Of a stretch of DNA of 64,000 bases, positions 2,807 to 64,000 are shown in pieces. Within the stretch, counting starts at the first letter, position 1, and each line of letters begins with the position of its first letter. A program made the translations under genes and the position numbers. The DNA comes from Streptomyces sp. TSRI0281 (GTDB lineage: Bacteria; Actinomycetota; Actinomycetes; Streptomycetales; Streptomycetaceae). The notes under the pieces are model-generated. The model did not search any database. It was not told where the DNA came from and saw only the letters and a program-made list of their open reading frames with translations. The stretch spans positions 67,041-131,040 of the forward strand of contig NZ_LWLE01000015.1 of assembly GCF_001905125.1 (NCBI RefSeq). The letters run 5' to 3'.

Positions 2807-2830
2807 GCGGGGTTCGGGTCCTGAGCAGAT

Positions 2831-2875: not shown

Positions 2876-2892
2876 GGCCGGCTGCGCCGTCC

Positions 2893-3483: not shown

Positions 3484-3516
3484 GCAGTGCATCCTAAGGA
3501 CGGGCGGAACGGGACC

Positions 3517-6639
<3,123 letters not shown>

Positions 6640-7587: not shown

Positions 7588-7625
7588 GGAGTTCCTCCTC
7601 GGAAGAGCGACTGACCGGTGGCAAG

Positions 7626-7644
7626 TAAAGCAAGCCTTACCTAA
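7626..7644 (-). promoter_or_regulatory. Iron box upstream of the formyltransferase
   Basis: Reading leftward the site is TTAGGTAAGGCTTGCTTTA, close to the DmdR/IdeR consensus TTAGGTTAGGCTAACCTAA in its left half. It sits about 40 bp upstream of the formyltransferase ATG, where Fe-loaded DmdR would block the promoter. Confidence 0.75.
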
Positions 7645-7730
7645 TAGCGCAACGCGCCCGGATTTTGGGCCTGTTCGTCGCCCCACTTCTGCCGCACGTC
7701 CGATTTGCCCTGTCGACAGGTTGATTCAGC

Positions 7731-7749
7731 TCAGGTTAGCTTTACCTAA
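7731..7749 (+). promoter_or_regulatory. Iron box upstream of the ornithine monooxygenase operon
   Basis: TCAGGTTAGCTTTACCTAA closely matches the 19-bp DmdR/IdeR palindrome and lies about 85 bp upstream of the monooxygenase ATG. It probably controls the rightward monooxygenase, lipoprotein, NRPS and MbtH genes. Confidence 0.8.
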
Positions 7750-7834
7750 GTTCGACTGGTCGGTGGCAACGGCGGGCTCGGCCTCTCGTACTTTTCATCC
7801 GCGCCTGGCAGGCGACCCGCACGATGGGAGTGAC

Positions 7835-9187
7835 ATGTCACAGGTTCTTCCTGGCGACACACCTTTGATCCATGACCTCATAGGTATCGGCTTCGGGCCG
7901 TCCAATGTGGCCATGGCGATCGCGCTGAGCGAGCACAACGCGCGTGTCGGCAGGGAGGAGGCGGTCACCGCTCACTTCTTCGAGCGGCAGCCGAACTTCG
8001 GCTGGCACCGTGGCATGCTGATCGACGACGCGACGATGCAGGTGTCCTTCCTCAAGGACCTGGTGACGCTTCGTAACCCGTCCAGCGAGTACACCTTCCT
8101 GCGCTACCTGCAGAGCAAGGGCCGTCTGATCGACTTCGTCAACCACAAGAACCTCTTCCCGCTGCGCGTGGAGTTCCACGACTACTTCGAGTGGGCCGCG
8201 GCGAAGGTCGACGACATGGTCTCGTACGGCCACGAGGTCATCTCCGTCGAGCCCGTCGTACGCGACGGAGTGGTGGAGTACCTCGATGTGACGGCCCGTT
8301 CGGGTTCCGAGACGGTGGTCCACCGCGCCCGCAACCTCGTCATCGGCACGGGGCTGCGGCCCCTCATGCCCGAGGGTGTGGAGCGGACGGACCGCGTCTG
8401 GCACAACTCCGACCTGCTGGCCAAGGTGGACGGCCTGGCGGGCACCGACCCCACCCGCTTCATCGTCGTCGGCGCCGGTCAGAGCGCCGCCGAGAACGTC
8501 GCGTACCTGCACCGCCGTTTCCCCCGGGCGGAGGTCTGCGCCGTCTTCTCCCGCTACGGCTACAGCCCCGCCGACGACAGCAGCTTCGCCAACCGCATCT
8601 TCGACCCGCAGGCGGTCGACGAGTACTACGCCGCCCCCGACGACATCAAGCGCAAGCTGATGGACTACCACGGCAACACCAACTACTCCGTGGTGGACAT
8701 CGACCTGATCGACGACCTGTACCGCCAGGCTTACCAGGAGAAGGTGCTCGGCACCGAGCGGCTGCGCTTCCTCAACATCTCCCGGCTGACCGGCGTCAAG
8801 GAGACCCCGGACACGGTGCGCGCCACCGTCAAGTCCCTCGTCAACGGCGAGGAGAGCACGCTGGAGGCCGATGTGGTGGTCCTCGCCACCGGCTACACCC
8901 CGGCCGAGCCGCTCGCCCTCCTCGGTGACGTGGCGGAACGCTGCCACCGCGACGACCAGGGCCGCGTCCAGGTCGAGCGGGACTACCGGATCGCGACGGA
9001 CGACGGACTGCGCTGCGGCATCTACCTCCAGGGCGGCACCGAGCACACCCACGGCATCACGTCGTCCCTGCTCTCCAACACCGCGATCAGGGTCGGCGAG
9101 ATCCTGGACTCGATTCTCGACCGGGGAGCGGAGACCGCCCCCGGTGGGCCGCGGCCGGTCGCCGACGGCATCGGATCGGTCCGCTAG
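7835..9187 (+). CDS. L-ornithine N5-monooxygenase (CchB-like)
   Basis: A 450-aa flavin-dependent N-hydroxylating monooxygenase, the usual length for siderophore ornithine/lysine hydroxylases. Seen motifs: FAD-binding GIGFGPSN at residues 17-24, NADPH-binding FIVVGAGQSAAENVAYL near 210-225, and the C-terminal LATGYTP motif. It hydroxylates the N5 amine of L-ornithine, the first committed step of hydroxamate formation. ATG 7835 has a GGGAG site upstream, whereas the longer in-frame start at 7574 would overlap both iron boxes and the divergent gene. It heads a probable operon with the receptor lipoprotein and NRPS. Confidence 0.95.
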   Translation: MSQVLPGDTPLIHDLIGIGFGPSNVAMAIALSEHNARVGREEAVTAHFFERQPNFGWHRGMLIDDATMQVSFLKDLVTLRNPSSEYTFLRYLQSKGRLIDFVNHKNLFPLRVEFHDYFEWAAAKVDDMVSYGHEVISVEPVVRDGVVEYLDVTARSGSETVVHRARNLVIGTGLRPLMPEGVERTDRVWHNSDLLAKVDGLAGTDPTRFIVVGAGQSAAENVAYLHRRFPRAEVCAVFSRYGYSPADDSSFANRIFDPQAVDEYYAAPDDIKRKLMDYHGNTNYSVVDIDLIDDLYRQAYQEKVLGTERLRFLNISRLTGVKETPDTVRATVKSLVNGEESTLEADVVVLATGYTPAEPLALLGDVAERCHRDDQGRVQVERDYRIATDDGLRCGIYLQGGTEHTHGITSSLLSNTAIRVGEILDSILDRGAETAPGGPRPVADGIGSVR

Positions 9188-9303
9188 GTCTCTCGCCCCG
9201 ACCCACACATCTTCAGCCAAGTCCCCCCACGCGCGCGGCCGGTTGACGGCGCCGTCGTGGACGGACCTGGTGTGCACAGTGAAACCCCTTGAAAGGAACA
9301 TCC

Positions 9304-10341
9304 GTGTCCATTGGTACACGCCCCGCGCTGACGCGGCTCGTCAGGGACCTTCCCCGTGTCGCCGTCGTGGCCGTCGCCGCGTTCGCTCTGTCCGCCTGCG
9401 GGGGCGGCGCCGACAAGGCCGATTCCAAGCCCTCGGCCGGGGCGAAGTCCGGCGCCTTCCCGGTGACGGTCGAGCACAAGTACGGCAGCACGACGGTCGA
9501 CGCGGAGCCGAAGAGGGTCGTCACCCTGGGCCTCTCGGACCAGGACGCGGTGCTGGCGCTCGGTATCAAGCCCGTCGGATCGGTGGACTGGTTCAAGGAG
9601 CAGCCGTACGGCAAGTGGCCGTGGACCAAGGACAAGTGGGGCTCCACGAAGCCGGAGATCGTGGGTGAGCGCGACGAGTACAACATGGAGAAGATCGCCT
9701 CGCTGAAGCCGGACCTGGTCATCGCCCAGTACTCGGGGATGAAGAAGGAGCAGTACGACACGCTCTCCAAGTTCACCAAGGTCGTCGCCCAGCCCAAGGG
9801 CCTTCCCGACTACGGCGCCTCCTGGCAGGTCATGACCCGGCAGATCGGCAAGTCGCTCGGCAAGGACGCGGAGACCGAGAAGCTGATCGCGGGCATCGAC
9901 GCCCGCTTCAAGGCCGTACGCGACAAGCACCCCGAGTTCGCCACGAAGACGCTCGCCGTCGCCGACAGCTTCGAGGCGGGCAAGTACTCGGCGTTCACCA
10001 AGACCGACCCCAAGTCGATCTTCTTCTCCGAACTGGGCTTCCAGCTGAAGCCCCAGATCGACACACTGGCCAAGCCGGGCTGGAACGCCGCCGAGCTCAG
10101 CGCCGAGAAGCTGAATGTGCTGGATGTCGACCGGCTGGTCTGGGTGACCTCCAGCACCGACGCCGACAACCGGATCAAGGCGGAACCGCTCTACAAGAAC
10201 CTGAAGGTCCATCAGGACAAGCGCGACCTGTTCGTGCCCTACCAGGACCCGGACGTCGGTGCCGCGTTCTCCTTCAACACGGCCCTCTCCATCCCCTACG
10301 CGATCGACGAGATCGAGCCGCTGCTGGCGGCCATCAAGTAA
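9304..10341 (+). CDS. Iron-siderophore ABC transporter substrate-binding lipoprotein
   Basis: About 345 aa. The N terminus has a basic stretch, a hydrophobic core (VAVVAVAAFALSAC) and a lipobox LSAC, so it is an SPase II lipoprotein exposed outside the membrane. The mature part follows the FecB/FepB class III solute-binding fold: the PKRVVTLGLSDQDAVLALGIKPVG segment and the two-lobe layout with a long backbone helix. GTG 9304 is chosen for AAAGGA upstream; a TTG at 9289 is an alternative. It would bind the ferric hydroxamate and deliver it to the FecCD permease pair encoded at 29-31 kb. Confidence 0.92.
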   Translation: MSIGTRPALTRLVRDLPRVAVVAVAAFALSACGGGADKADSKPSAGAKSGAFPVTVEHKYGSTTVDAEPKRVVTLGLSDQDAVLALGIKPVGSVDWFKEQPYGKWPWTKDKWGSTKPEIVGERDEYNMEKIASLKPDLVIAQYSGMKKEQYDTLSKFTKVVAQPKGLPDYGASWQVMTRQIGKSLGKDAETEKLIAGIDARFKAVRDKHPEFATKTLAVADSFEAGKYSAFTKTDPKSIFFSELGFQLKPQIDTLAKPGWNAAELSAEKLNVLDVDRLVWVTSSTDADNRIKAEPLYKNLKVHQDKRDLFVPYQDPDVGAAFSFNTALSIPYAIDEIEPLLAAIK

Positions 10342-10378
10342 CGCCCCACCACTGACGCGGGACCGGGAAGCGGACGGT

Positions 10379-10409
10379 TCGACGGCGTGCCGGCTCGGCA
10401 CGCCGTCGA
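10379..10409 (+). terminator. Hairpin between the lipoprotein and NRPS genes
   Basis: A perfect 14-bp stem, TCGACGGCGTGCCG (10379-10392) with CGGCACGCCGTCGA (10396-10409), closes a 3-nt loop. It lies inside the 155-bp gap of the presumed operon, so it may attenuate transcription into the large NRPS gene or stabilise the upstream mRNA end. Confidence 0.55.
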
Positions 10410-10496
10410 TGACGGACGAGAACGGGGGGACCCCCCGAAGCCGTCGATCAGCGGCGGCTCGCCCCGTTCCACCGGGACGGCACACCCCTCACTGAC

Positions 10497-13400
10497 ATGA
10501 CCAGGGAAAGGCCACTTCGTACGATGTTTGACGTCGAGTCGGACCGGACAACCGCTTCCGGGCTCCCGCTGACCGGCGGGCAGGCCGGCGTCTGGCTTGC
10601 CCAGCAGATCGAGCCGGACAGCTCCGCCTACAACATCGTCTTCACCCTGGACCTGCTCGGCGACATCGACCTCGACCACCTCGCGGGCGCGGTCCGGCAG
10701 ACGGTCGAGGAGGCCGAGTGCCTGCACGTGAACGTGGTTCCCGGAAGGGGGGAAGCGCGCCAGACTCCGCGCGCCGTCTCCTTCGACGTGCCCGTCGTCG
10801 ACCTGCGCGGCGCACCGGACCCCGAGGAGGCCGCCGCCACCTGGACGGCCACCGACCGGGACCGGCCCGTCGACCTCACCCACGGCCCGCTCTTCTCCCA
10901 GGTCCTGCTACGGCTCGCGGACGACCGGGTCCGATGGTCCCAGCGCTACCACCACATCGTTCTCGACGGCATGGGCGTCGCACTCATCACCCGCCGGGCC
11001 GGCGAGCTCTACACCCTGGGCGAGAAGGCCCCGGCCCGCAAGGACCGGCCGCTCGCCCGGCTCGTGGACGCCGATCTGACCTACCGGTCATCCGAGCAGT
11101 ACGGGGCCGACCGCGCCTGGTGGCACGAGCGGATGTCCGGCCGCGCCGAGCCCGCACGTCTGGTCGAGCGCGGCCCGTCCCTCATGGCGCGGCGCCTGCG
11201 GCGCACCGCCGAACTCTCCGCACAGGAGACGGAGCGGCTGTACGCGGCCGCCGAGCGCTCCGGTGTCCGGCCGTCCCGTGTCCTGGTCGCCGCCGTGGCC
11301 GCCTACCTCCACCGGGCCGGCGGCGAGCGGGACCTCGTCCTCGGCCTGCCGATCGCGGCCCGGCAGGACCGTGTGTCGGCCGACACCCCCGGCATGGTCT
11401 CCAACGTCGTCCCGCTGCGCGTGCGGGTCAGCCCCGGGACGACCGGGACGGACCTGGTGGCCGAGGTGCGCGACGCGGTCGCCGGAGCGGTGGCGCACGG
11501 GCGCTACCGCGCCGAGGACCTGGCCAGGGACTTCGGCCTCGTCGACGGCGTACCGGCGCTCGTCGGACCCACCGTCAACATCCTTCCCCGGCCCGGGAAA
11601 CTGGGCTTCCCGGACGGCACGGCCGAACTCCTCCCGGAGTGGCTCGGCCCGGTCAGCGACCTCGCCTTCGCGTTCGCCGGGACCCGGGACGGCTCCGGGC
11701 TGCGCGTCCACCTCGACGCGGACGCGGACATCTGCGACGAGGAGACGCTCCGCGACCATGAGCGCCGCTTCCGCACCCTGCTGAAGGCCCTCACCGAGGA
11801 CCTGGACCGCCCCGTCGGCCACATCGAACTCACCTCCGCCGACGAACGCGACCGCCTCCTCGGCGAGTTCGGGGCGGCACCGCACCCGGTGTCCGAACAG
11901 TCCTGGCCCGCGGCCTTCGAAGCGCAGGTGCGCCGCACGCCCGACGCCGTCGCGCTCGTGTGCGAGGACGACGAGCTGACGTACGCCGCTCTCAACACCG
12001 CGGCCAACCGGCTCGCCCGCCTCCTCCTGGCCCGCGGCGTGGGCGCCGAGGACGTCGTCGCCGTGGCCCTGCCGCGCACCCCGGACCTCGTCGTGTCCCT
12101 GCTCGCGGTGATGAAGACCGGTGCCGCCTATCTGCCGCTGGACGCCGACCACCCCCAGGACCGCATCGCCTACATGCTGTCCGACGCCGGGGCCCGCACC
12201 GTGATCACCGTGCGGGGACTCGCGGACGAACTCCCCCCGGCACAGGACGGCGTGGCGCACGTACTGCTGGACGACCCGGCCACCGCGGACACCCGCGCCG
12301 CCCTCGACGGCTCCGACCCCGCTCTGCCGGTCGCACTGGACCAGGCCGCGTACGTCATCTACACCTCCGGCTCCACGGGCCGCCCCAAGGGCGTCGTCGT
12401 TCCCCACGACGGCATCGGCAGTCTCATCGCCACCGCCACCGAACGGATCGGCGTGGACGCCGACAGCCGCGTCGTGCAGTTCGCCTCCGTCGGTTTCGAC
12501 GTGACGGTCTGGGACCTGGTCATGGCCCTGTGCGTCGGAGGCCGGATCATCCTCGTCCCCACCGAGCGCCGCGTCGCGGGACCCGCCCTGACCGAGTACA
12601 TAGCGCGGCACGACGCCACGCACATGATCCTGCCGCCGTCGATCGTCTCGGCGCTGCCGCCGGAGTGCGAACTGCCCGAAGGCGCCGTCCTCGTCGTCGG
12701 CACCGAAGCCGTGCCGGGCGAGCTCATCGCCCGCTGGTCCGGGCGGCTCCAGGTCGTCGTCGCCTACGGTCTCACCGAGGCGAGCGTCAACTCCACCCTC
12801 TGGACCGCCCGTCCGGACCGGCCGGGCCCCACGCCCATCGGCCGCCCCGACCCGAACACCCGCACCTACGTCCTCGACACCGCGCTCCGCCCCGTGCCGG
12901 TGGGCGTCGAGGGCGAGCTGTACGTCGCCGGGCGCGGCCTGGCCCGCGGCTATCTGGGCCGTCCGGGGCTGACGTCGGAGCGGTTCGTCGCCGATCCGTA
13001 CGGCGGGCCGGGCACCCGGATGTACCGCACCGGCGACCGGGTCCGCTGGGGTGCCGACGGCAACCTGGAGTTCCTGGGCCGGGCGGACGGCCAGGTCAAG
13101 ATCCGTGGTCATCGCATCGAGCCGGGTGAGATCGAGAGCGCGTTCATGGGCTGCCCGGGAATCGCCCAGGCCGCCGTCCTCGTCCGTGAGGACCACCGGG
13201 GCGTCAAGCGCCTCGTCGCCTACCTGGCCGCCGACACCGCCACGGACTCCGGCGCCGCCGTGACCGCCGCACGGGCCCGGATCGCCGGCACCCTGCCGGA
13301 CCATATGGTGCCGTCCGCCGTCGTCGTCCTCGACGGCTCGCTCCCGCTGACGCCCAACGGCAAGCTCGACCGGCGCGCACTGCCCGAGCCCCGCTGGACG

Positions 13401-16400
13401 GCCATGAGCGGCGCCGACGCCCCCACCACCCCGGCCGAGACCGTGCTCGCCGCCCTCTTCGCGGACGTCCTCGGGCAGCCGTCGGTCGGCGTCCACGACA
13501 GCTTCTTCGAGCTGGGCGGGGACAGCATCGTCGCCATCCAGCTGGTGAACAGGGCCCGTGAGGCCGGGCTCACGATCAGGCCGCGCGAGGTGTTCCGGCT
13601 CCGGACGGTGGCGGCCCTCGCCCGGTCCGCGGCCGAGGCCGGGACGGGGACCGAGACCGGTTCCGGGTCCGGGACGGCTGACGGGATCGCGGCCCGCCCC
13701 GCCCCGACCGTCCCGGCCGCGCTGGACGAGGACGCGTTGCCCGTCTCCCCGCTCCAGGAGGGCTTCTTCTTCCACGCCGCGTTCGACGCTCGGGAAGCGG
13801 ACCTCTACCTGGTCCAGGAACTCCTCGACCTGGACGGCCCCGTCGACCCGGCCCGGCTGCGACGCACCCTGCAACTGCTCCTGGACCGGCACCCCTTGCT
13901 GCGTGCCGCGTTCCGCCAGCTTCCCGGCGGCGAGGTGGTCCAGCGCCTCGCCGCGCAGGTCATCCTTCCGTGGCGGGAGGCCGACACCGCCGAGACCGGC
14001 CTCGACGACCTGCTGAGTGCCGACCGGGCCGAGCGTTTCGACCTGGCCCGGCCTCCGCTGCTGCGCGCCACCCTCATCCGGGACGGCCACCGCCACCGGC
14101 TCCTGCTCACCCTGCACCACATCGTCGCCGACGGCTGGTCGGTCGCGGTCCTGCTGCGCGAACTGACCGCCGCCCACCGGGGCGAGGAGCTTGCGGAGCC
14201 GGTGGCCCCGCGCCCGTACCTGTCGTGGCTGGCGGGCCGGGACCGGGACGCCGCCCGCGACGCGTGGCGGCAGGCGCTGTCCGGGCTCGAAGGGCCGACC
14301 CGGCTGCCCGCACTCGCCGCCGGGACGGATCACGGGCGGACGGCGCCCAGGACCGAGCACGTCGACACACGGCTGCCCGAACGGTTCACCGCCGACCTCA
14401 TCGCCCGCGCACGGACCCACGGCCTCACCCTGAGCACCGTCGTCCACGGCGTCTGGGGCCTGCTCCTCACCTCGCTCACCGGCAGTCAGGACGTCGTCTT
14501 CGGCACGACCGTGTCCGGCCGGACGACCGAGGTCACGGACCTGGACACCGCCGTGGGCCTGTTCATCAACACCGTCCCCGCGCGGGTCGCGCCGCGCGCC
14601 GACGAATCGCTCGCCGAGCTGCTGCGACGGGTCCAGGACGAGCACGCGGCGCTCCTGGACCACCAGCACCTGGCTCTCGCCGACATCCAGCGGATCGCGG
14701 GCGGCGGGGAACTCTTCGACACACTCGTGGTGTTCGAGAACCACCCGGCCGGCGACCTCTCCGCCGCGCAGGCGCCCGGCGAGCTTCGCATCACCGGCGC
14801 CGAGGTGTTCGACTCCGTGCACTACCCCCTCGCGCTCGTCGTCGAGCCGGGCGAGCACGGACTCCTGCTGCGGTTCAAGCACGACGCGGCCCGCCTCGAC
14901 CAGGTGACCGTGGCGGTGCTCGCCAACAGGTTCACGGCGCTGCTGCGCGCGTTCGTGTCCGACCCCGGCCGCACCGTCGCCCGGACCGGCGTGCTCTCCG
15001 ACCGGGAGCACGAGCACCTCGCCGCGCTGAACGCCACCGGGCGGCCCGTTCCCGAGGCCACTCTCGCCTCGCTGTTCGCGGCGACTGTGGCCCGTACACC
15101 CGACGCCACCGCCGTCGTCTTCGAGGACACGACCCTGACGTACGCGGAGCTGGACCGGCGTGCCGAGGCGCTGGCCCGGCGGCTGCGGTCACGCGGCGCC
15201 GGCCCGGAGACGTATGTCGCGGTCGCGGTACCCCGCTCCGCCGAGCTGATGATCGCGCTCCTCGCCGTCCTCAAGGCGGGCGCCGCCTATCTGCCCGTCG
15301 ACCTCGACTACCCCGCCGACCGGGTCGCGTTCATGCTCGGCGACTCCGGCGCGCGCACCGTGGTGACCACCGCCGAAGCGGCCGGGCGGCTGCCCGTCGT
15401 GCCCGGCCTCGACCACCTCCTCGTCGGCCGGGACGACCGGGCCGAGGACGTCCCCGGCGCATCCAGCACACCCGGCACATCCGGCACACCTGGCACTCCC
15501 GCCCGCCCGGCCGGCCCCGACCACCCCGCCTACCTCATCTACACCTCCGGCTCCACCGGGCGCCCCAAGGGCGTCGCCGTCACCCACCGGGCCATCGTCA
15601 ACCGGCTCGCCTGGATGCAGGGCGCGTACGGGCTGACCCCCGACGACCGGGTGTTGCAGAAGACGCCCGCCAGTTTCGACGTGTCCGTGTGGGAGTTCTT
15701 CTGGCCCCTGGTGGAGGGCGCGACCGTCGTCCTCGCCCGCCCCGACGGCCACCGCGACCCGGCCTACCTGGCCGAGCTGATCCACACCCGGCGGATCACG
15801 ACCACCCACTTCGTCCCGTCGATGCTCGCCGCGTTCACCCAGGTCATGGAGACCGCAACGGGCCTCCCGGACTGGGCGGCGAGCCTGCGCCGGGTGTTCT
15901 GCAGCGGTGAGGCGCTCACCGGTGCCGGGGCCCGGCGCTGGTGGGAGCTGACGTCCCGCTCCGGCCGCGGACCCGTTCCCCTGCACAACCTCTACGGGCC
16001 CACCGAGGCTGCCGTGGACGTGACCTCCTTCGCGTACGAGGGTGGCGGCGAACTCGCCGTCCCCATCGGCCGGCCCGTCTGGAACACCCGCCTGTACGTC
16101 CTCGACGCCTTCCTGCGACCGGTGCCCGACGGGGTCCCCGGCGAGCTGTACCTCGCGGGCGTACAACTGGCGCGGGCCTACCACGACCGCCCGGGGCTGA
16201 CCGCCGAACGGTTCGTCGCCGATCCCTTCGGCGAGCCCGGTGAGCGCATGTACCGCACCGGCGACCTTGTGCGCCGCCGCGCGGACGGCGCCGTCGAGTA
16301 CCTCGGCCGCACCGACCGCCAGGTCAAGATCCGCGGAAACCGTGTGGAGCCGGGCGAGATCGAGGCCGCACTCGCGGACCTGCCGGGCGTCGCCCTCGCC

Positions 16401-19400
16401 GCCGTGACCGTCCGCGACGACGTCCTCGTCGGCTACGTGGCCCCCGCTCCGGGCGCCCCCCGCCCGGACACCGAACGGCTGCGTGCCGCGCTCGCCGAAG
16501 CGCTGCCCGCGACCATGGTGCCCGGCGCCCTCGTGGCCCTGGACGAACTGCCGCTGACACCCAGCGGAAAGCTCGACCAGAACGCGCTTCCGGCCCCCGG
16601 GGTCACGCCCCGCGCGGGCGGACGGCCGCCCCGCGACACGCGCGAACGCGCTCTGTGCGAGATCTTCACCGACGTTCTCGGTGTACCGGGGATCGGCGTG
16701 GAGGACGACTTCTTCGTCCTCGGCGGCGACAGCCTGTCCTCGATCACCGTCGTCACCCGCGCCCGTGAGAGAGGGATGGCGTTGAGCCCCCGTGACGTGT
16801 TCGAACACCGCACCCCCGCCGCACTCGCCGCCGGGGCGGCTGCCGCGGCCCCGGCTCCGGAGGCGGGCACTCCCGCTCCCGCGACGCCCGCGCCCGCCGA
16901 AGCGGTGACCGTCTCCGCCGCCGACGCCGGGCAGGCGGCGGCAGCCCTCCGGGCCGTGCTGGCCCAGCAGGCCGGGTCCGGTGCGGCCGTCGATCCCGCA
17001 CTGCGGGCACTGCTCGACCAGCTCACCTCCGCCTCGGCCACCCCCCAGGAGCCCCCGGCCCCCGCCCCGCTCGGCGGCTACGCGCTCACGCCCGAGGAGA
17101 CCGCGCGCGTCGAGACCGTCGCCGGGCTGCCCGTCGCGGACATCTGGCCGCTCTCCCCGCTCCAGGAGGGCATGTACTTCCACGCCACCTTCGACGCGGG
17201 CGAGGCGCTCGACGTCTACCTGTCCCAGGAGAGCATCGACTTCGGGCACCGGGTCGACGCCGACCGGCTGCGGGCCGCCTGCCGGGCGCTGCTGGAACGC
17301 AACAGCAGCCTGCGGGCCGGATTCGCCGACGGCGGTCTGTCCCGCCCCGTCCAGTTCATCGTGGACGGGGCCGAGATCCCGCTCGTCGAGGCGGACCTCT
17401 CCGGTCTCTCCCGCGACGAACGGCGCACCCGCACCGAGGAGTTGCTGGCTGCCGACCGGCGCCGGCGCTTCGATCTCACCTCCGCCCCGCTGTGCAGGCT
17501 GCTGCTGATCCGGCTCGGCGACGGCCGGGACCGCCTCGTCGTCACCCACCACCTGATCCTGTGGGACGGCTGGTCCGCGTGGCTGTTCCTGGAGGAGCTG
17601 TTCACGCTGTATGAGCGGGGCGGCGACGCCACCGGTCTGCCGGCCCCCGGCTCGTACCGCGACTACCTGGCCTGGCTGGACGAGCAGGACACCGGGGCCG
17701 CCGTCGACGCCTGGCGCCGGGCGCTCTCCGGCTTCGACGAGCCGACCCTGCTCGCCCCCTCCGGGCGCGACGCGGGACCCGTGATCCCGGTGGACTTCGA
17801 CACCGTACTGACGCCGGAGAGCAGCGAGCGGCTGCGCACCCTCGTCCGACGGCACGGGCTCACCCTGAACACCGTGCTGAACGCGGCGTGGGGCATGGTG
17901 CTCTCGGCGATGACGGGCCGCGACGACGTGACCTTCGGCATCGCGGTCGCCGGGCGGCCCGCCGACGTACCCCACGCGGCCGGCATCATCGGCATGTTCC
18001 TCAACACCATTCCGGCGCGCGTCGCCTTCACCCCGGACGAGCCGGTGCTCCGCCTGCTGCGACGGATCCAGTCCGAGCGGGCCGCCGTCATGCCGTACGA
18101 GTACGTCGGCCTCGGCACCATCCAGCAGGAGACGGGCCACCGCCGCCTCTTCGACACCCTGTTCGTCCTCCGCTCGGCCGACGGCGAGGACCGGGCCGCC
18201 GAGCTGCGGCGGCGGCACGGCATCACCGACGTGTCCAACGTGGACGGCACGCACTTCCCGCTCACCCTGATCGTCACCCCCGGCAACCGGCTGCGGGTCA
18301 CCCTCGCGGCCAGGCCCGACCTCTTCGACCCCGAGGACGCGACCACGATCCTCGCCCGGTTCACGGCCGTCCTGGACCGGCTGGCCGCAGCCCTGGAGCA
18401 CGGCGACGGGGCATCCGCCCGGACCGCCGGTGTCGACCCGCTGCTGCCGGCCGAGCGCACCGCACTGCTCGCCGGCCGGGAGAGCAGCCGCGGGCCGGTG
18501 CCGGACGAGACCGTCGCCGACATGCTCGCGGCCCAGGTCGCCCGCACCCCGGACGCGGTGGCGCTGGTCTTCGGCGAGCGCGCCCTCACGTACGCCGAAC
18601 TGGACGCCCACATCAACCGGCTCGCCCGGCTGCTGCTCGCCCGGGGCGCCGGGCCGGAGAAGGCCGTCGCCCTCGCGCTGCCGCGCTCCATCGACATGGT
18701 GGCCGCGCTGTTCGCCGTACTGCGGACCGGCGCCGCCTATCTGCCGCTCGACCTCGACCACCCCGCCGACCGGCTCCGCCTGATGGTGCGCGACACCGGC
18801 CCCCTGTGCCTGGTGTCCACCGCCGCGGTCGCCCCGACGCTGCGCGGGGAGGAAGGACCCGTCGCGCCCGAACTCCTCCTGGACGACGAGGCCGTGGCCG
18901 CCGAGCTGGCCGCGCTCCCGGGCGGTGAGATCGCCGACGCCGAGCGCCCCGCGTTCGCGCACGACGTGCCGGACCGCCTGGAGTACCCCGCGTACGTCAT
19001 CTACACCTCCGGTTCCACCGGCCGGCCCAAGGGCGTCGTCACCCCGTACCGCGGGCTGACGAACATGCAGCTCAACCACCAGAAGGAGATCTTCGACCCG
19101 GCCATCGCCTCGGCGGGCGGACGGCGGCTGCGCATCGCGCACACCGTGTCCTTCGCCTTCGACATGTCCTGGGAGGAACTGCTCTGGCTCGTCGAGGGCC
19201 ATGAGGTGCACGTCTGCGACGAGGAGCTGCGCCGCGACGCCGAGGCCCTGGTGGCCTACTGCGACCGGCACCGCGTCGACGTGGTCAACGTCACCCCCAC
19301 GTATGCCCAGTTGCTCATCGAGGAAGGGCTGCTCGACCAGGACGAGGAGACCGGGAAGCACCGGCCCGCGCTGGTCCTGCTCGGTGGGGAGTCCGTCTCC

Positions 19401-22400
19401 GACACGGTGTGGACGCGGCTGCGGAACACCGAGGGCACCTACGGCTACAACCTGTACGGACCGACCGAGTACACCATCAACACGCTCGGCGGCTCCACCG
19501 CCGACAGCGCGACCTCCACGGTCGGCGTGCCCATCCGCAACACCCGCGCCCATGTGCTGGACACGATGCTGCGGCCCGTCCCGCCGGGCTGCCCCGGTGA
19601 GCTGTACATCGCCGGCACGGGTCTGGCGCGCGGCTATCACGACCGGCCCGGTCTGACGGCCGAGCGGTTCGTCGCCGACCCGTTCGGCGAGCCCGGTGAG
19701 CGCATGTACCGCACCGGCGATCTCGTACGGCAACGCGCCGACGGTCTCCTCGACTTCCTCGGCCGCACCGACGACCAGGTCAAGATCCGCGGCTACCGCG
19801 TCGAACTGGGCGAGATCTCGACCGCGCTGTCCACGCACCCGGAGGTCGCCCACGCGGCGGTCGTCGTGGCGGAGAACGCGGGCACCAAGCGCCTGGTCGG
19901 CTATGTCGTACCGGAGGAGGGCGCCGGACAGGGAGAGGCACTGACGCGGCGGCTGCGCGACCATGTGAAGGCCGCGCTGCCGGACTACATGGTCCCCTCC
20001 GTACTCGTCACCGTCGGGGCACTGCCCCTGACCGTCAACGGCAAGCTGGACGTCCGCGCCCTGCCCGCACCGGACTTCGCCGGTACCGGCACGAGCCGCC
20101 CGCCCCGCACCCCGGGGGAGGAGACGCTGTGCGCGCTCTACGCCGAGGTGCTCGGGCTGCCCGCGGGCAGCGTCGGCATCGACAGCGACTTCTTCGAGCT
20201 GGGGGGCCATTCCCTGCTGGCCACCCGGCTCGTCAGCAGGGCCCGTACCGCGCTGGACACGGAGCTGGCGATCCGGGACCTGTTCGAGGCACCCACCGTG
20301 GCCGAACTGGTGGAACGCGTCGCACGGGCCGGCGGCGCCGCCCGTCCGGCACTGACGGCCGGTGAGCGGCACGGGCGCACCGAACTGCCGCTGTCCCACG
20401 CCCAGCAACGGCTGTGGGTCATCCAGCAGATCGAGTGCACCTCGGCCGCGTACAACTTCCCGCTGGTCATGCGGGTGCGCGGCCCCCTCGACACCGACGT
20501 GTGGCGCACCGCCCTCGCCGATGTGACGGACCGGCACGAGGCGCTGCGGACGGTCTTCCGCACGGCGCCCGACGGCCGGACCTCCCAGCGCGTCCTGCCC
20601 GCCGAACAGGCGCACCCCGTGGTGGAGTGCCTCCGGGCCACCGAGGACGCGCTGCCCGGCATCATCGACGCGGCCGTCAACCGCCCCTTCGACCTCGCCG
20701 CCGAACTGCCGCTGCGGGCCACGGTCGTGGAGCTGGCGCCCGACGACCACGCCGTCGTCCTGCTGCTGCACCACATCACCACCGACGAATGGTCGGACCG
20801 GCCCTTCCTCCGCGACCTGGCCACCGCCTACACGGCCCGCCTCGACGGCACGGCCCCCGGCTGGGAGCCGCTGCCCGTCCAGTACGCCGACTACGCGCTG
20901 TGGCAGCAGCGGCTGCTCGGCGACCCCGCCGACGGGAGTGGCCTGGCCGCCCGTCAGCTGGATTACTGGCGCACCACGCTGGCCGGGGCCCCCGAGGAAC
21001 TGGAACTGCCCTCCGACCGCCCCAGGCCCGCCCGCCCGGCGTTCTCCGGAGCCGAACTCGACGTCCCGTTCGACGCCCAGGTCCACGAGGGTCTGAAGCG
21101 GCTCGCCCGGGAGACCGGCGCCAGCATGTTCATGGTGGTGCACGCGGCCGTGGCCGCCCTGCTCCACCGCATGGGCGCGGGGACGGACATCCCCCTCGGC
21201 GCACCCATCGCCGGGCGGAGCGACGAGGCGCTGGACGATCTGGTCGGCTTCTTCGTCAACACGCTGGTCCTGCGCACCGATGTGAGCGGCGACCCCAGCT
21301 TCACCGAGCTGCTGGCACGGGTCCGCGAGAGCGACCTGGCGGCGTTCTCGCACGCCGATGTGCCCTTCGAGTCCGTCGTCGAGGCCCTCAACCCGACGCG
21401 TTCCCTCTCCCGCAACCCGCTCTTCCAGGTGATGGTCGGCTACCACGCCCGCACCGGCGACGAGCTGGAACTGCCCGGACTCCGGCTGGAGTACGTGCCG
21501 TTCGCGATCAGCTCCGCCAAGTTCGACCTCGTGTTCAGCTTCTCCGAGCGGCTCGCCGCCGACGGCGGCACCGGCGCGCTGAACTGCCGCCTGGAGTTCG
21601 CCACCGAGCTGTTCGACCGGGAGACCGCCGAGCGCCTCGGCGAGCGGCTCGGCCGGCTGGTCGCCGCACTCGTCGCGGCACCCGGGCAGCCCCTGTCACA
21701 GGCCGGGATCCTCACCGCCGACGAGCGGCGGCTGGTCCTGGAGGAGTTCAACGGCGCCCCGCGCGAGGTCGAGGAGGCATCCCTGCCCGCGCTGTTCGCC
21801 CGGCGGCTCGCCGAACGGCCCGACGCGGTCGCCGTCGTGGAACGCTCCCGCCCGGTGACGTACGCGCAGCTCGACGCCCGCGCCAACCGCATCGCGCGGC
21901 TCCTCGCGGCCCACGGCGTGGGCACCGAGAGCGTCGTCGGCGTGGCCGTCCCCCGCTCGGTGGACATGGTCGCCACCGTGGTCGCCGTACTGAAGCTGGG
22001 CGCCGCGTTCCTGCCGCTGGACCTGGTCCACCCCGGGGACCGTCTCACGTATCTGATCGAGGACTCGGGGGCCGCCCTCGTGGTCGGCACCGAACCCGTC
22101 GCGGGGAAGATCCCCGATGTCACCGGCGTACCCGTGGTGCTGCTCGACGCGCCCGGGACGGCCGGGGAGCTGGACGCACTGTCCGAGGCGCCCGTGGGCG
22201 GCGGACCGGTCGGCCCGGACCAGGCCGCGTACGTCATCTACACCTCCGGATCGACCGGTCGCCCCAAGGGCGTGGTGGTGCCCCACGAGGGCATCTCCAG
22301 CCTGGTCGCGACCGCGGTCGACCGCATGGGCCTGCGACCCGACAGCCGGGTGCTCCAGTTCGCGTCGATCGGCTTCGACGTCTTCGCCTTCGAGCTGTCG

Positions 22401-24869
22401 ATGGCCCTGTGTCACGGCGGCCGGCTCGTCCTCATCAGCGACGAGGCACGGGTAGCGGGACCGGCGCTCACCGACTTCCTCGCGGACCAGCGGATCACCC
22501 ACATGATCCTGCCGCCGTCGCTGGTGTCCGCGCTGCCGCCGGGCTGCGAGCTCCCCGAGGGCTCGACCGTCCTGGTCGGCACCGAGACCGTACCGCCGGA
22601 CCTGTTCGAGCGGTTCGGCGCCACGGCCGACCTGATCTGCGCCTACGGGCTCACCGAGGCGACGGTCAACTCCACGCTGTGGCACGCCCGTGAGCACGGC
22701 TGCAGCCCCTCCGGCCGGGTGCCGATCGGCCGGCCCGACCCCAACACCCGCTGCTACGTCCTCGACGAGACCCTGCGACCCGTCCCGCCGGGCGTGATCG
22801 GCGAGCTGTACGTCGCCGGGCGCGGCCTGGCCCGCGGCTATCTGGGCCGTCCGGGGCTGACGTCGGAGCGGTTCGTCGCCGATCCGTACGGTGGGCCCGG
22901 CAGCCGGATGTACCGCACCGGCGACCGTGCCCGCTGGCGCCCGGACGGCAACCTCGATTTCCTCGGCCGGGTCGACAGCCAGGTGAAGGTGCGGGGCTTC
23001 CGCATCGAGCTGGGCGAGGTCGAGGCGGCCCTCACCGCGCATCCGTCGGTCGCCCAGGCGGCCGTGGTGCCCGACCGCGACGGCGACATCGTGCGCCTGG
23101 TCGGCTACGCGGTGCCCGAATCGGGGACACTCGACCCGCGGGAGCTGCTGTCCCACGCGGCCGGGCTGCTGCCCGAGTACATGGTCCCCGCGCTCGTCGT
23201 CCCGCTGGACGGGCCGCTCCCGCTCACGCCCAACGGCAAGCTGGACCGCAAGGCGCTGCCCGTACCGGACTGGTCCGCGATGACCGGCGACGACCGGCCG
23301 GCCACCGGGACGCAGGCCCGGCTCGCCGATCTGTTCTGCGAGATCCTGAAGCTGGACAGCGTCGGCGTGCACGACAACTTCTTCGCACTCGGCGGACACT
23401 CCATGGCGTCGATGCGGCTCCTGGGCCGCATCCGCGCCGAGTTCGGGGTGGAGCTGAGCATCCGGGACGTCTTCGACGCGCTGTCGGTCGCCGCTCTCGC
23501 CGCCAAACTGGAGGGCGCGGCGGCCACCCGTCCCGCGCTGGTCGCCGGGCACCGCGACGAACCGCGGGTGCTCGCACCGGTCCAGCGCGTGCAGTGGGAG
23601 TCGTCGCGCCGCAGTCCCGGCTTCGACCACGCTCTCGTCCTGCGCTCCACGGGTGGGCTCGACGCACAGGCGCTCACCGCCGCGCTCGCCGATGTGGTGG
23701 CGCGCCACGAGCCGCTGCGCACGGCGTTCACCGAGCGGGACGGCGTGCTGTACCAGCGGCCGGCCGGGGCTCCGGTGCTGGCCGTGGAGTCGAGCGCGGA
23801 CCTGGAGGCCCGGCTCGCCGAACTCGCCACGCGGTCACCGGACCCGGAGGCGGAGGCACCCGTGAACGTGCGGCTGCTGACCGGCCCGGACGGCGGGCAG
23901 GCGCTGCTGGTCACCGCGCACTACCTCGCGGTGGACGAGTGGTCGGTGGTCCCCCTGTTCCGTGACCTCACCACCGCCTACGCGGCCCGCACACAGGGCC
24001 TGGCACCCTCCTGGGAGCCGCTGCCGGTCACGTACGGCGACTACACGCGGTGGGCGCACGAGGTCCTGGGCGACCTCACCGACCCGGACAGCCGGGGCGG
24101 ACAGCAACTCGCCTACTGGCGGCGGACGCTCAGGGAGGTCCCGGGGCGGCTGGCGCTTCCGGCGGACGGGCCGCGCGAGGCCGCGCCGGACGCGTCCGGA
24201 CGGCCCGCGGACCAGGTCGGGTTCGTCCTCGACGCCGATCTCCACGAGGCCGTGGACCGGCTCGCCCGCGCCACCGGCACCAGCATGTTCATGGTGCTGC
24301 ACGCGGCCCTGGCGACCCTCCTCACCGCACACGGAGCGGGCACCGATCTGCCCATCGGCACGATGGTCGCGGGCCGGAGCGAGGACCGGCTCGCCGAACT
24401 GGTCGGCTGCTTCCTCAACACGGTCGTGCTGCGCACCGACACGGCGGGCGACCCGGCCTTCACGGAGCTGCTCACCCGGGTGCGGGAGACCACACTGAGC
24501 GCCCTGGACCGTCAGGACGTCCCGTTCGACGAAGTCGTCGGGGCGACCGGACTGCCCGCGGAGGGACCGCAGGTCATGGTGATCCACCATGAACAGGCCG
24601 ATCTGGAGCGGCTGGAAGGCGGCCTGGGCTCGCTGGAGGCCCTGCCCACCGGCTCGTCCCGCGCGGAGCTGACCCTGAGCTTCCACGAACCACGCGGTGA
24701 GGGCCCCGTGCACTGCGCCCTCATCCACGCGACCGACCTGCTGGGCACCGCGAAGGCGCGGCGTCTGGCCGACGAACTGCAGAAGCTGCTGCGCATCGTG
24801 GTGGCCCACCCGGAACAGCCGCTCTCCGAGCTGTTCACCGCAACGTCCAAAAGGAGCGACAACGCATGA
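10497..24869 (+). CDS. Four-module siderophore NRPS with terminal C domain (foroxymithine/erythrochelin type)
   Basis: 4790 aa, read as C1-A1-T1-C2-A2-T2-C3-A3-T3-C4-A4-T4-C5, with no TE or separate E domain. Carrier serines are at about 1010, 2079, 3239 and 4302. Adenylation codes read by eye are A1 DVWIVGAVNK, A2 DVWHFSLVDK (Ser), A3 DMENLGLINK (known for formyl-hydroxyornithine in coelichelin) and A4 DVFILGAVNK. C1 has HHIVLDG (152-158), consistent with a starter C acylating residue 1. C2 has HHIVADG (1207), C3 has an HHLILWDG variant (2351) and C4 has HHITTDE (3425). C5 has HYLAVDE (4475), without the catalytic His. The expected chain is acyl-(f)hOrn-Ser-hOrn-(f)hOrn released as a diketopiperazine. 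ATG 10497 or ATG 10524 may be the real start. The stop overlaps mbtH. Confidence 0.93.
12912..13003 (+). repeat. 92-bp tract identical between adenylation domains A1 and A4
   Basis: Bases 12912-13003 in A1 are identical to 22800-22891 in A4, covering the [20 protein letters not shown] region around motif A7/A8. Likewise 16227-16264 (A2) equals 19683-19720 (A3) over 38 bp. Such tracts point to gene conversion or recent duplication between module pairs. Confidence 0.85.
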
Positions 24870-41052: not shown

Positions 41053-41227
41053 GGTCCCCTCCTCCTGTCGCCGCTCCCGTCCCACCTGCGGGAGCCGAGG
41101 TCGATCATATGAGCGATATTTCTGCGACGGGGTGCCTTCTCGTCCTTTCTTCCAACGAGAACTGACACACCGCCATATCCCGTGCCCAGCAGCCTCTGCG
41201 GGGGCCGCCGAAAGCAGTTCGGCCGGA

Positions 41228-42133
41228 TCAACGCCCTCTCAGGACCCGGTCGAGCGCCGCCCGCCCCGCCGGACCCCACGCCGGCTTGCCGCCGGGCAGG
41301 CCGCGGTCCCCGTTCTGGCCCATCAGCATCAGGAAGAGGCTCTTCAGCGCGGCCAGTCCGCGGGCACGCCGGACCGTCGCCTCGTCAGCCTCCGCGTACG
41401 CGGCGAAGAAGCGTTCTGCCGCACCGGCCGGCAGCAGCACCCAGGCAGCCGCCAGGTCCGATGCCGGGTCACCGGCGGACAGGTCGCCGAAGTCGACAAC
41501 GCCCGCCAGCGTCCCGTCCGCGACGACGACGTTCGCGGGATGCAGGTCGCCGTGCACCCACACCGGCGGACCCTCCCACGCGGGGGCCGCGAGGGCGTCG
41601 TCCCAGACGGCCCGGACATCGGCGGCGTCGGAGCCGATCGTGCCGGCGTCGACGGAGTCGAAGAACTGGTCGAAGCTGTCCTTGTATTCCGTGGGGTGCA
41701 CCCCACGGCCGGCATCAACCGCCGCGTCGGCGGGCGCAGCCACATGCAGCGCCCGGAGGAACGCCGCCAGGGTTTCGGCCGCGTGCTCGCCGCGGGTGAT
41801 CGTCCCGTGGTCCAACGGCAGGCCCGGCACCCACGTCATGACCGTCCAGATCTTGGGGAACCGCTCGGATGGCGCACCACTCCGCACCGGGACGGGGATG
41901 GGCAACGGCAGGCGTGGGGCGAGCAGCGGCAGCCACCGGCGCTCCTTGAGCTGGTGATCGGGCTCGGTGTCCATACGCTGGATCCGCACGGCCAGCTCGT
42001 CCCCGAGGCGCCACATCTGGTTGCCCCAGCCGCCCTCCACCTCGCGGAGAGGCAACTCGGCCAGGTCCGGATGCTGGTCCCGCAGCAGGTGGCGGACAAG
42101 ACCCGCGGTGATCTCGGTCTCGGTCTCAGTCAT
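41228..42133 (-). CDS. Aminoglycoside/macrolide phosphotransferase (APH) family kinase
   Basis: 301 aa kinase-fold protein. The catalytic loop is VWVHGDLHPANVVV and the metal loop VVDFGDLSAGDPASDLAAAW, both canonical for APH enzymes. The N-terminal lobe contains GGWGNQMWRLGDELAVRI, with EPDHQLKERRWLPLLAPRLPLPIP downstream. It would phosphorylate a small molecule with ATP or GTP, possibly conferring antibiotic resistance, but many family members have other substrates. ATG 42133 is used; the frame is open to 42214 without a better site. It has no clear operon partners. Confidence 0.85.
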   Translation of the reverse strand: MTETETEITAGLVRHLLRDQHPDLAELPLREVEGGWGNQMWRLGDELAVRIQRMDTEPDHQLKERRWLPLLAPRLPLPIPVPVRSGAPSERFPKIWTVMTWVPGLPLDHGTITRGEHAAETLAAFLRALHVAAPADAAVDAGRGVHPTEYKDSFDQFFDSVDAGTIGSDAADVRAVWDDALAAPAWEGPPVWVHGDLHPANVVVADGTLAGVVDFGDLSAGDPASDLAAAWVLLPAGAAERFFAAYAEADEATVRRARGLAALKSLFLMLMGQNGDRGLPGGKPAWGPAGRAALDRVLRGR

Positions 42134-61489: not shown

Positions 61490-61618
61490 ATGGAGCACAC
61501 CACGCAGACCCCTGCCTACCAGGCGCCCATCGTGCTGGACGTCGGCGACGTCGTCGAGGTGACGCTGGGCACCCAGACCTTCGACACCGCCGACGACACG
61601 CAGTACAAGAACGCCTGA
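61490..61618 (+). CDS. Class II lasso peptide precursor
   Basis: 42 aa. The leader holds the RRE-binding pattern as Y10-x-x-P13-x-V15-x-x-x-G19 and ends with T25 at position -2 and L26 at -1. The predicted core is 16 residues, GTQTFDTADDTQYKNA, with Gly1 and Asp9 placed for a nine-membered macrolactam ring and a seven-residue tail. There is no Cys, so class II. ATG 61490 has a perfect GGAGGAGG site. The cyclase, RRE and peptidase genes follow. I do not recognise the core as a known lasso peptide. Confidence 0.9.
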   Translation: MEHTTQTPAYQAPIVLDVGDVVEVTLGTQTFDTADDTQYKNA

Positions 61619-61777
61619 CCCTCGGGTCTGCCGGGCCGGACGGGGCGCACGCCGCTCCGTCCGGCATGGCCCAGGGGCGCCGGGCCCGCCATACCTGTGC
61701 TGGGGCACAGACGGGTGGGCCCGGCGCTCCATTCGGTTCGTGTCCGGGTACGGCGACGGGTGAGGGAGACGGCGGCG

Positions 61778-63613
61778 ATGCGGTGGAGCGCGGGACGGTA
61801 CGGAACGACGGAAGAGGCCAGACGGCCCCGGGGCGGATACCCGGTGCCCGGCGTCGAGGCGGCGTGGACGGTGGGCTGGCCCACCGCACGGGTGCGGTCG
61901 GTGAGCGACGGCCCGGTGTCGCTGACCGTGATCGGGGACTGCGGGGCCGATGACGAGCACCTTGCCGCGCGGCTCCCATCGGTGCGGGCCGGGCGGTGGC
62001 GGGAGCTGACCCGGTGGCCCGGCTCGTACCTCGCCGTCGCCCGCAGCGGAGCGACGCTGGCCGTGGTCGGCGATCTGGCCGGACAGCACCCGGTGTACTG
62101 GCGGAGCCACGGCGGGGCGGTGTGGTGGGCAACGTCCATGCTGGCGCTGGCCGCGCTCGACGGGGCGCCGGCCGACCCGACCGCGCTGGCCGCGCATCTC
62201 GCGCTGGCGCAGCCGGATGTCCTGGGGCAGCGCAGTCTGATGCGGTGCGTGAGCCGGGTGCCGGGCGGGCACCTGCTGCTGCTCGACGCCGAGGGTGCCC
62301 GTGCGGTGCGGTTCGAGCCGGCCGAGTACGGGAGCGTGGACCTGCACGACGCCGCGGCGACCGTGCGGGCGGCGCTCGGCGAAGCCGTCGCCACCCGCCT
62401 CGACGGACGTCCGGTCAGTGCCGACCTTGCCGGACTCGACTCCACCACGCTGGCCTGCCTCGCCGCACAGCGCGGGCCGGTCACCGCGGTGACGTTCGCC
62501 GACGAACGCCTGCGCGACGACGACCTCCCGTGCGCGACCCGAACCGCCGCGGCGGTGCCGGGCCTGACCCACCACGCGGTACCCGGCACAGCGAACACGG
62601 TCTACTACGACGGCCTGGACGACCTGAGCCGACTGCCGGTGACCGACGCGCCCAACGCCTACGCGGTCACCGCCTCGATCAAGCGGGCCGTGCTGGACAC
62701 GGTGGCCGCCCACCACCCCGTTCCCGGCCTGCACCTGACCGGGTCGGCCGGGGACGCCGTACTGTCCGCCCCTTCCTCCTACCTCGCCGACCTGCTGCGC
62801 GAGCGACACCACCGCCGGGCCTGGCGGCACGCACTCGGTCATGCCCGACTGCGGCACACCTCCGCATGGTCGGTTCTCGGGCGGGCGCGCCCCGCCTCCC
62901 GTACCGATCTGGCCGGCGCCTGGCGCCAGACGGCCGCCGAACTGAACGACCCCGTACGGAAGTGGATGCCGCAGGCGTCCCGACCGGTCGCGTGGACACC
63001 GCTCCTGGCCACCGCCGACTGGATGAGCCCCGACGTCCGCCACCAGCTCGCCGCCGCCCTCGACACCGCCGCCGCCCAGTCGGACGACACGCCTGTTCGC
63101 CTGGCCGCCTGGTCCGACCGGCAGGACCTGGCCCGTCTCGGCACCGACACCACCGGCTGGCGCGAGATCGCGGCGGCCGAGTACGGCATCGACCTGGTCG
63201 CCCCGTACCTCGACAACGAGGTCATCCGGGCCTGCCTTGCCGTTCCCGCCGACCAGCGCGGCACCCCGGACCGCTACAAACCGCTGCTCCACACGGCGTT
63301 TGCCGGGACCGGGGTGCTGCCCGACTCCGTGCTCGCCCGTACGACGAAGGGCGGCTTCAGCGCCGTCGCGTACGCGGGCCTGCGGGAGAACGCGCCCGTC
63401 CTGCTCGATCTCCTCGGGCCGTCCTCACGGCTGGCTGCCACCGGGCTGGTCACCGAGCAGCCGGTCGCGCGGATGCTCGCACAGGCCGCTGCCGGACAGC
63501 CCACCGCCCAGGGCGCCCTGCATCTCGCGATCGCCGCCGAGGTCTGGCTCCGGCAGGTCGACACCACCGCCCCTGCCTGGTGGGAGGTGACCTCCCGTGT
63601 GGCAACTGGCTGA
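61778..63613 (+). CDS. Lasso peptide cyclase (asparagine-synthase-like)
   Basis: 611 aa. It has an N-terminal glutamine-amidotransferase-like domain without the nucleophile Cys, then an asparagine-synthase domain that adenylates the Asp side chain and closes the ring. Visible landmarks: WPGSYLAVARSGATLAVVGDLAGQHPVYW, HLTGSAGDAVLSAPSSYLADLLRER, and the end DRYKPLLHTAFAG, TTKGGFSAVAYAGLRE. The ATP loop reads VSADLAGLDSTT, one residue shorter than the usual SGGxDS. ATG 61778 is chosen for GGGAG upstream; GTG 61760 is possible. It overlaps the next gene by 17 bp. Confidence 0.92.
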   Translation: MRWSAGRYGTTEEARRPRGGYPVPGVEAAWTVGWPTARVRSVSDGPVSLTVIGDCGADDEHLAARLPSVRAGRWRELTRWPGSYLAVARSGATLAVVGDLAGQHPVYWRSHGGAVWWATSMLALAALDGAPADPTALAAHLALAQPDVLGQRSLMRCVSRVPGGHLLLLDAEGARAVRFEPAEYGSVDLHDAAATVRAALGEAVATRLDGRPVSADLAGLDSTTLACLAAQRGPVTAVTFADERLRDDDLPCATRTAAAVPGLTHHAVPGTANTVYYDGLDDLSRLPVTDAPNAYAVTASIKRAVLDTVAAHHPVPGLHLTGSAGDAVLSAPSSYLADLLRERHHRRAWRHALGHARLRHTSAWSVLGRARPASRTDLAGAWRQTAAELNDPVRKWMPQASRPVAWTPLLATADWMSPDVRHQLAAALDTAAAQSDDTPVRLAAWSDRQDLARLGTDTTGWREIAAAEYGIDLVAPYLDNEVIRACLAVPADQRGTPDRYKPLLHTAFAGTGVLPDSVLARTTKGGFSAVAYAGLRENAPVLLDLLGPSSRLAATGLVTEQPVARMLAQAAAGQPTAQGALHLAIAAEVWLRQVDTTAPAWWEVTSRVATG

Positions 63614-63890
63614 GAACGCCCACCTGGTGCTCACCGACGAGGGCGGCGCGATCCTGGATGAGCGAATCGGCCGCTGGACGCACCTGACCCCGACCGCGTC
63701 CGCCGCCGTGATGCTTCTGCTCGCCGGCACCACCCGGGAGGAGGCCGCCGGGCAGTATGCGGAGCGCTACGGCATCCCTGCCGGTCAGGCCGGTGCTGAC
63801 GTCCGTGCGGTCGCCGACGCGCTGACCGCGCAGGGTCTCGCGGCCACGGAACCGGCGTCCCGTCGCCGTAGGCGGGGGTGGTGGCGGTGA
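63597..63890 (+). CDS. PqqD-like RiPP recognition element protein (lasso B1)
   Basis: 97 aa. The PqqD-like winged helix is visible: LVLTDEGGAILDERIGRWTHLTPTASAAVMLLLAGTTREEAAGQYAERYGIPAGQAGADVRAVADALTAQGL. It binds the leader peptide and delivers the precursor to the peptidase. GTG 63597 overlaps the cyclase stop by 17 bp, and its stop overlaps the next GTG by 4 bp. Confidence 0.92.
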   Translation: MWQLAENAHLVLTDEGGAILDERIGRWTHLTPTASAAVMLLLAGTTREEAAGQYAERYGIPAGQAGADVRAVADALTAQGLAATEPASRRRRRGWWR

Positions 63891-64000
63891 CGAGCCTGGA
63901 GGCGTACTCCACCGTCCGCACCGGGACCGTCCCCGAACGGATCGCCGCGGCCGCCGGTCTCGCCCTGGCCCTGGTCCTGCTGCGGCTGCCGTTCCGGCAC
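63887..64000 (+). CDS. Lasso peptide leader peptidase (lasso B2), N-terminal part only
   Basis: GTG 63887 overlaps the RRE stop (GTGA). The 38 readable residues include the hydrophobic helix PERIAAAAGLALALVLLRLPFRH, a usual start of lasso B2 transglutaminase-like proteases. The Cys-His-Asp domain lies beyond the window edge. Assignment rests mainly on gene order (precursor-C-B1-B2). Confidence 0.75.
   Translation, partial: MTSLEAYSTVRTGTVPERIAAAAGLALALVLLRLPFRH

Follow-up and report, generated by a model that had tools for sequence, protein, structure and literature searches.

A candidate lassimiditide gene cluster, with a PIMT homologue next to the lasso peptide genes, in Streptomyces sp. 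TSRI0281

The genes A, C, B1, B2 and M of Streptomyces sp. TSRI0281 most probably (we put this at about 0.87) constitute a five-gene lassimiditide cluster, accompanied by a divergent NsdA-family regulator, R, that would make a lasso peptide with an aspartimide in its ring at Asp6. The window (the whole stretch of 64,000 nucleotides that was analysed) covers bases 67041-131040 of a 136 kb contig, C15, within a 9.6 Mb genome of 38 contigs; the cluster lies at its right edge and was followed past it on L005, a stretch of C15 that reaches the contig end 4.0 kb after M. Judged by its reading frames the set A-C-B1-B2-M is apparently intact (Table 1), making the cluster a short lassimiditide candidate with an exact mass test. 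With this locus a rare lasso family, already described, gains one more member; a first sighting is not claimed.

Table 1. Features of the locus, numbered by window position; M is given by extrapolation past the window edge.
Feature	Position	Strand	Evidence
R, divergent NsdA-family TPR-like regulator, 458 aa	59916..61292	-	NF053720, 377.6 bits vs cut-off 75
A, lasso precursor, 42 aa	61490..61618	+	ORF reading MEHTTQTPAYQAPIVLDVGDVVEVTL / GTQTFDTADDTQYKNA; profile match
Leader of A, 26 aa: Y10, P13, G19, T25	61490..61567	+	sequence reading
Core of A, GTQTFDTADDTQYKNA: predicted G1-D9 ring, predicted aspartimide D6-T7	61568..61615	+	
RNA hairpins between A and C	61619..61775	+	folding energy vs shuffles
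C, macrolactam-forming cyclase, 610 aa	61781..63613	+	PF00733 1.9e-27; NF033561
B1, PqqD-like leader-binding protein, 97 aa	63597..63890	+	PF05402 1.7e-8; NF033530
B2, leader peptidase, only its start in the window	63884..64000, stop at 64309	+	NF033537, PF13471
M, PIMT homologue, 336 aa, past the window edge	64398-65408, extrapolated (L005:7439-8449)	+	PF01135

In a 2026 review (PMC13001092) only two aspartimide lasso peptides ("lassimiditides") are given as characterised, cellulonodin-2 and lihuanodin; both have DTAD at core positions 6-9 and a ring closed by Asp9, a protein-isoaspartyl-methyltransferase (PIMT) homologue methylates Asp6, the enzymes carry the motif WXXXGXP, Thr7 directs hydrolysis back to Asp in lihuanodin, and Thr and Ser are named for core position 7. 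The surveys cited there list 58 further predicted members, and 67 clusters in two groups, group 2 being predicted to be loop-modified. Two other papers describe a C-terminal extension of more than 100 residues in lassimiditide PIMT homologues (PMC10787088) and recognition by both lassimiditide enzymes of the threaded lasso only (PMC9266682). The group 1 lassimiditides (cellulonodin-2 of Thermobifida cellulosilytica and lihuanodin of Lihuaxuella thermophila) likewise combine lasso genes with a PIMT homologue, DTAD and WXXXGXP, whereas the present locus has its own core and host.

The sequence-only reading of this DNA had proposed a lasso precursor with Y10, P13, G19, T(-2), Gly1 and Asp9, and all of these were found as described in the reading frame of A. 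The precursor scored 26.7 with the NCBIfam model lasso_leader_L3 (cut-off 19); Y10, P13, G19, T25 and L26 of the leader were invariant among seven aligned precursors, and the RRE-binding leader, the T(-2) and an acidic residue at positions 7-9 place A in a lasso cluster. We accept the cleavage site and the predicted nine-residue ring from Gly1 to Asp9 as originally drawn. Closure of the ring via D10 was considered and is unlikely, D9 being present in all 40 cores tabulated and position 10 variable; a second, M-linked aspartimide at D10-T11 was also set aside, since D10-T11 occurs in all nine precursors of an M-less sister group. Asp6, already noted as a ring residue, is where the modification is predicted, and DTAD stands at positions 6-9 of GTQTFDTADDTQYKNA, matching the D(T/S)AD pattern of group 1. 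Among the chains of at least 20 residues in solved structures the precursor had no match. The strings DTADDTQY, DTADDTEY, NADDTQY and GTQTFDTAD were not found in the literature text that was searched (main text, as distinct from figures and supplements), and DTADDT occurred in five papers on unrelated subjects.

Profile matches to all four genes bore out the proposed order A-C-B1-B2. C scored 354.8 with NF033561, the albusnodin/ikarugamycin macrolactam cyclase family (cut-off 300), and B2, which is complete on L005, scored 60.3 with NF033537 (cut-off 33) and 46.5 bits with PF13471, disposing of the concern that its peptidase domain might be missing beyond the edge. B1 completes the lasso set of PqqD protein, peptidase and cyclase by its Pfam PqqD score of 35.1 (cut-off 23.4), its score of 54 with NCBIfam lasso_PqqD_Strm (NF033530) being under the cut-off of 70. 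The B2 start codon is at 63878 or 63884, and in 27 B2 homologues the Cys and His columns were kept throughout, the next acid column being mostly Glu (21 of 27). Although C fits the same NCBIfam model as the albusnodin cyclase, A gave 13.6 bits with the albusnodin precursor model NF033525 (cut-off 30) and is not of albusnodin type. Albusnodin is acetylated by an acetyltransferase of its own cluster, according to PMC9266682; a general scan of five downstream ORFs gave no acetyltransferase match. The suggestion to look past position 64000 for an ABC transporter was followed with a crude pattern (Walker A and an LSGGQ-like motif in one ORF), which found none in L005 up to the contig end; by the same pattern 18 of the 20 related loci described below, the window's included, had none in their stretches, and such ORFs were seen in L009 (downstream, on the opposite strand) and L011 (same strand, just upstream of the precursor).

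The lasso cluster reading was thus sound by profiles and incomplete in one respect: the next gene, outside the window, encodes the PIMT homologue M, whose presence in the cluster is a further group 1 feature. M begins 88 bases past the B2 stop, behind an AAGGAG that by eye resembles a ribosome-binding site. It matched PF01135 at 1.3e-22 and TIGR04188 at 1.2e-29, the latter under the cut-off. Its motif WEEAGRP conforms to WXXXGXP as in group 1, and the region matched by Pfam stops at residue 171 in a 349-aa reading, about 178 residues short of the C-terminus, in keeping with the extension of more than 100 residues given in PMC10787088. M is likened to TceM and LihM by motif and family. M could instead be an unrelated neighbour, e.g. 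a housekeeping repair PIMT, and the product a plain lasso peptide of 1756.754; M does fit general PIMT families, all under their curated cut-offs, and its solved relatives are solely general PIMTs (best, 2yxe), but its long C-terminal part and WXXXGXP speak against this, and we regard it as very improbable. Because the core has DTAD at 6-9 and M has WXXXGXP, the likely product is the aspartimide and not the plain lasso.

What the analysis established is gene content, motifs, conservation and the co-occurrence of M with D6-[T/S/H]7; every chemical step, and the order of lasso first and M last, we infer from the work on cellulonodin-2 and lihuanodin. By that analogy B1 would hold the leader via Y10, P13 and G19, B2 would cut it between L(-1) and G1, and C would close the ring about the threaded tail by linking the amine of G1 to the side chain of D9; M would then methylate Asp6 of the finished lasso using S-adenosylmethionine, whereupon the Thr7 backbone nitrogen would displace methanol to give the ring aspartimide, a net change of -18 Da, and Thr7 would steer hydrolysis back to Asp, allowing M to act again. 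The computed mass of the aspartimide form is 1738.743 ([M+2H]2+ 870.379) and that of the plain cyclised core 1756.754 ([M+2H]2+ 879.384). The mass first assigned, 1756.754 (m/z 879.38), is correct for the plain cyclised core, but the PIMT homologue next in line should lower the mass of the end product by 18 Da, and looking solely at m/z 879.38 would mean looking for the intermediate. Another possibility is that M is active, yet the product that accumulates is the hydrolysed peptide, with Asp or isoAsp. PMC13001092 states that lanthipeptide and graspetide aspartimides largely become isoAsp, and that those of lassimiditides hydrolyse in Tris at pH 6-9 and completely in base over 21 h; it also states, however, that lassimiditide aspartimides are stable in water and that Thr7 of lihuanodin returns hydrolysis to Asp. 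With Thr7 present in the core here, we consider accumulation of the hydrolysed form very unlikely.

We examined if this gene set recurs elsewhere. A profile of seven precursors was searched against a genus sample (392 genomes) and a phylum sample (396 genomes) and matched 28 and 4 genomes, respectively, the window's own genome being counted in both. Loci were taken from 20 wider stretches (of 36 listed places), five named genome contigs and five plasmid records, and L050 was dropped as a duplicate of L008. A, C, B2 and M occurred together in 20 loci, the window's among them, and B1 was matched in 19 of these; in the remaining locus, L060, an unnamed ORF occupies that place in the public record. 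Selection had been by a match to the precursor or the cyclase and not by M, although the grouping itself uses M. The C match was in two pieces in L052 and L012. Since 19 further loci carry relatives of A, C, B2 and M, 18 of them also with B1, the cluster is not a chance arrangement. A 21st locus, L059, lies on a contig that ends before M. The 20 loci held 16 distinct cores, and the closest, that of a Streptomyces halstedii plasmid, is one residue off the window's (T4 here, N4 there); the core, once described as apparently unfamiliar, is therefore typical of this set and no sign of novelty. Outside the 20 stand the distant matches L062-L067 and three precursors without the set's enzymes: L058:5860-5958, with Ile at position 6; L046:7001-7120, next to another kind of lasso cluster that includes an ABC transporter gene; and L061:6019-6163, which is frameshifted. 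On a plasmid of Streptomyces sp. WZ-12 (L045:7001-7120) the core is GTNNFDHADDTEYKNA, with His7 after the predicted modified Asp6, and M is kept. Natural variants in the related loci (His7, Asp8, Val8, Glu10, DSxD and the M-less Asn6-Asn7) offer material for probing the purpose of the aspartimide.

The association of M with Asp6 was followed through the cyclase family NF033561, which was matched in 174 of the 392 genus genomes (E at most 1e-40), 36 of them over the cut-off. Thirty cyclase loci were examined, plus 20 regions chosen by score and 11 more (ten being longer cuts of places already seen); six minus-strand loci were re-read for precursors, which were found in five and not in L034 (genome of L131). 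In a cyclase tree of 53 chosen rows, made by a quick method, the 21 main-group loci (L059 included) fell on one side of a branch with support 99, and eight M-less loci formed another group with support 100. M-less here means no M-profile match in a stretch reaching at least 2.4 kb past C; L067 (332 bases after C) and L131 (precursor not read) were left out of the M-less table. Asp6 was present in all 20 main-group loci, the window's included, and was followed there by Thr, Ser or His; the same held for all six loci of a second group (L123-L128) with a more distant PIMT homologue, having cores such as GKYAEDSSDQGRYFE with D6-S/T7-x-D9, and four of these six M proteins had the strict WXXXGXP. 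Altogether D6-[T/S/H]7 was seen in 26 of 27 precursors beside any PIMT homologue and in none of the 12 tabulated precursors without M (11 loci), of which the sister group supplied seven with N6-N7 and two with D6-K7, the other three, from elsewhere, having G6. This distribution argues further against M as an unrelated neighbour of a plain lasso peptide, as does the finding that all 20 loci in the cyclase clade with a stretch extending far enough have a following M homologue. Among more distant, untabulated M-less cores (L064, L068, L106, L110, L112 and L114-L119) none had Asp6 by eye.

Asp6 is not universal beside PIMT homologues, because L129, with core GDVSVGQSDDSDAGQYYAP, has Gly6; its PIMT homologue (L129:4005-5306), beside the cyclase, scored 86.8 bits with the M profile and 173 bits, sub-cut-off, with TIGR04188, and one guess is that the product is a loop-modified group 2 lassimiditide. 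Of the 20 M proteins in the clusters 18 had WXXXGXP; it was absent from L048 and from L060, the latter counted from its cluster copy and not from its stand-alone copy. On account of L129 and these two M proteins, our confidence in the group 1 reading was slightly lowered and that in a decaying remnant raised. When independent pairs were counted in the tree (with L067 taken as M-less and L129 excluded), there were three, two of them on well-supported branches; every pair pointed the expected way, but the number is too small for significance (sign test, p 0.5), and the association of M with D6 is suggestive by count and not proven by independent events.

Cores of the M-less clade (L062, L063, L065, L066, L104, L107-L109) keep ADDT(Q/E)Y or PDDTEY, and its nine precursors have Asn6-Asn7 (7) or Asp6-Lys7 (2). 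Spontaneous deamidation can turn Asn into the same succinimide as would arise at Asp6 through M. It is conceivable, though we think it quite improbable, that two related lasso lineages reach the same ring electrophile differently, the one enzymatically by M at Asp6-Thr/Ser/His7 and the M-less one at Asn6-Asn7 via spontaneous deamidation.

The S. halstedii NBC 00641 plasmid (NZ_CP109045.1) carries the same six genes at 90% DNA identity over 5.56 kb, in a predicted cluster whose core differs only at position 4. The similarity extends from the R stop to 58 bases past the M stop (L005 2952-8507) and ceases at these borders; because it is limited to that block, R to M appears to travel as a single unit. 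Pairwise dN/dS against this copy was R 0.12, A 0.45, C 0.21, B1 0.33, B2 0.22 and M 0.20. A silent or decaying mobile remnant might be imagined here, as the precursors without the set's enzymes (L046, L058, L061) and the M genes that stand alone or are broken (L098, L099, L100) show that such sets decay, but with the five genes and R all open and these ratios between 0.12 and 0.45 against a 90% identical copy, we hold it to be extremely unlikely. These M homologues, none with its own cluster, are on three Streptomyces plasmids: that on pSGZL stands alone, that of S. albus is in pieces, and that on S. violaceusniger pSTRVI01 is a second copy close to a full cluster.

A collection of 72,556 plasmid records had a precursor relative on five and an M relative on seven. 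Five of the 20 loci are on plasmids (four plasmid records, and L060, matched to pSTRVI01), a share that is biased by the deliberate search of the plasmid collection; the contigs of L010, L049, L052 and L053 (5.9-9.6 Mb) are presumably chromosomes. A phage origin was considered and rejected, one scan of viral contigs having given no relative. A genome of the same species (G061) had no precursor-profile match and no cyclase-family match at the limits used; match coordinates on its contig C2 were the same as those on the 1.6-Mb plasmid of Streptomyces sp. NBC_01237, and window positions 1-20000 and 43.7-53.4 kb were 97% identical to this C2 / NBC_01237 plasmid sequence. From such similarity the window's contig likely belongs to an NBC_01237-like plasmid replicon. 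Elsewhere in the window, two regions resemble annotated genes of Streptomyces plasmids: 11933-23248 is similar to those labelled non-ribosomal peptide synthetases, and 41222-42115 to those labelled aminoglycoside phosphotransferase family, the latter on several plasmids. On C15 past the window, in L005:10437-10652, a 33-nt direct repeat occurs four times at an exact spacing of 61 nt, with copies at 82-100% to the reference one; we take this to resemble a type I-E CRISPR array.

R, which lies inside the block common to the S. halstedii plasmid, had homologues at 63-94% identity in 10 of the 19 other loci (in two pieces in L049) and weak matches (26-30%) in six, one of which, L055, also fits NF053720; no match was seen in L011, L052 and L057. 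The A-C intergenic region folded at -105.7 kcal/mol (z -4.33; 1 of 200 shuffles equally low), and across the 19 of 20 loci measured (L052 lay outside the measurement) z ranged from -1.67 to -6.71, the weakest hairpins being those of L057 (z -1.67; 5 of 100 shuffles equally low). The hairpins may represent a processing or attenuation site, and our guess would be that they affect the ratio of A to C transcript.
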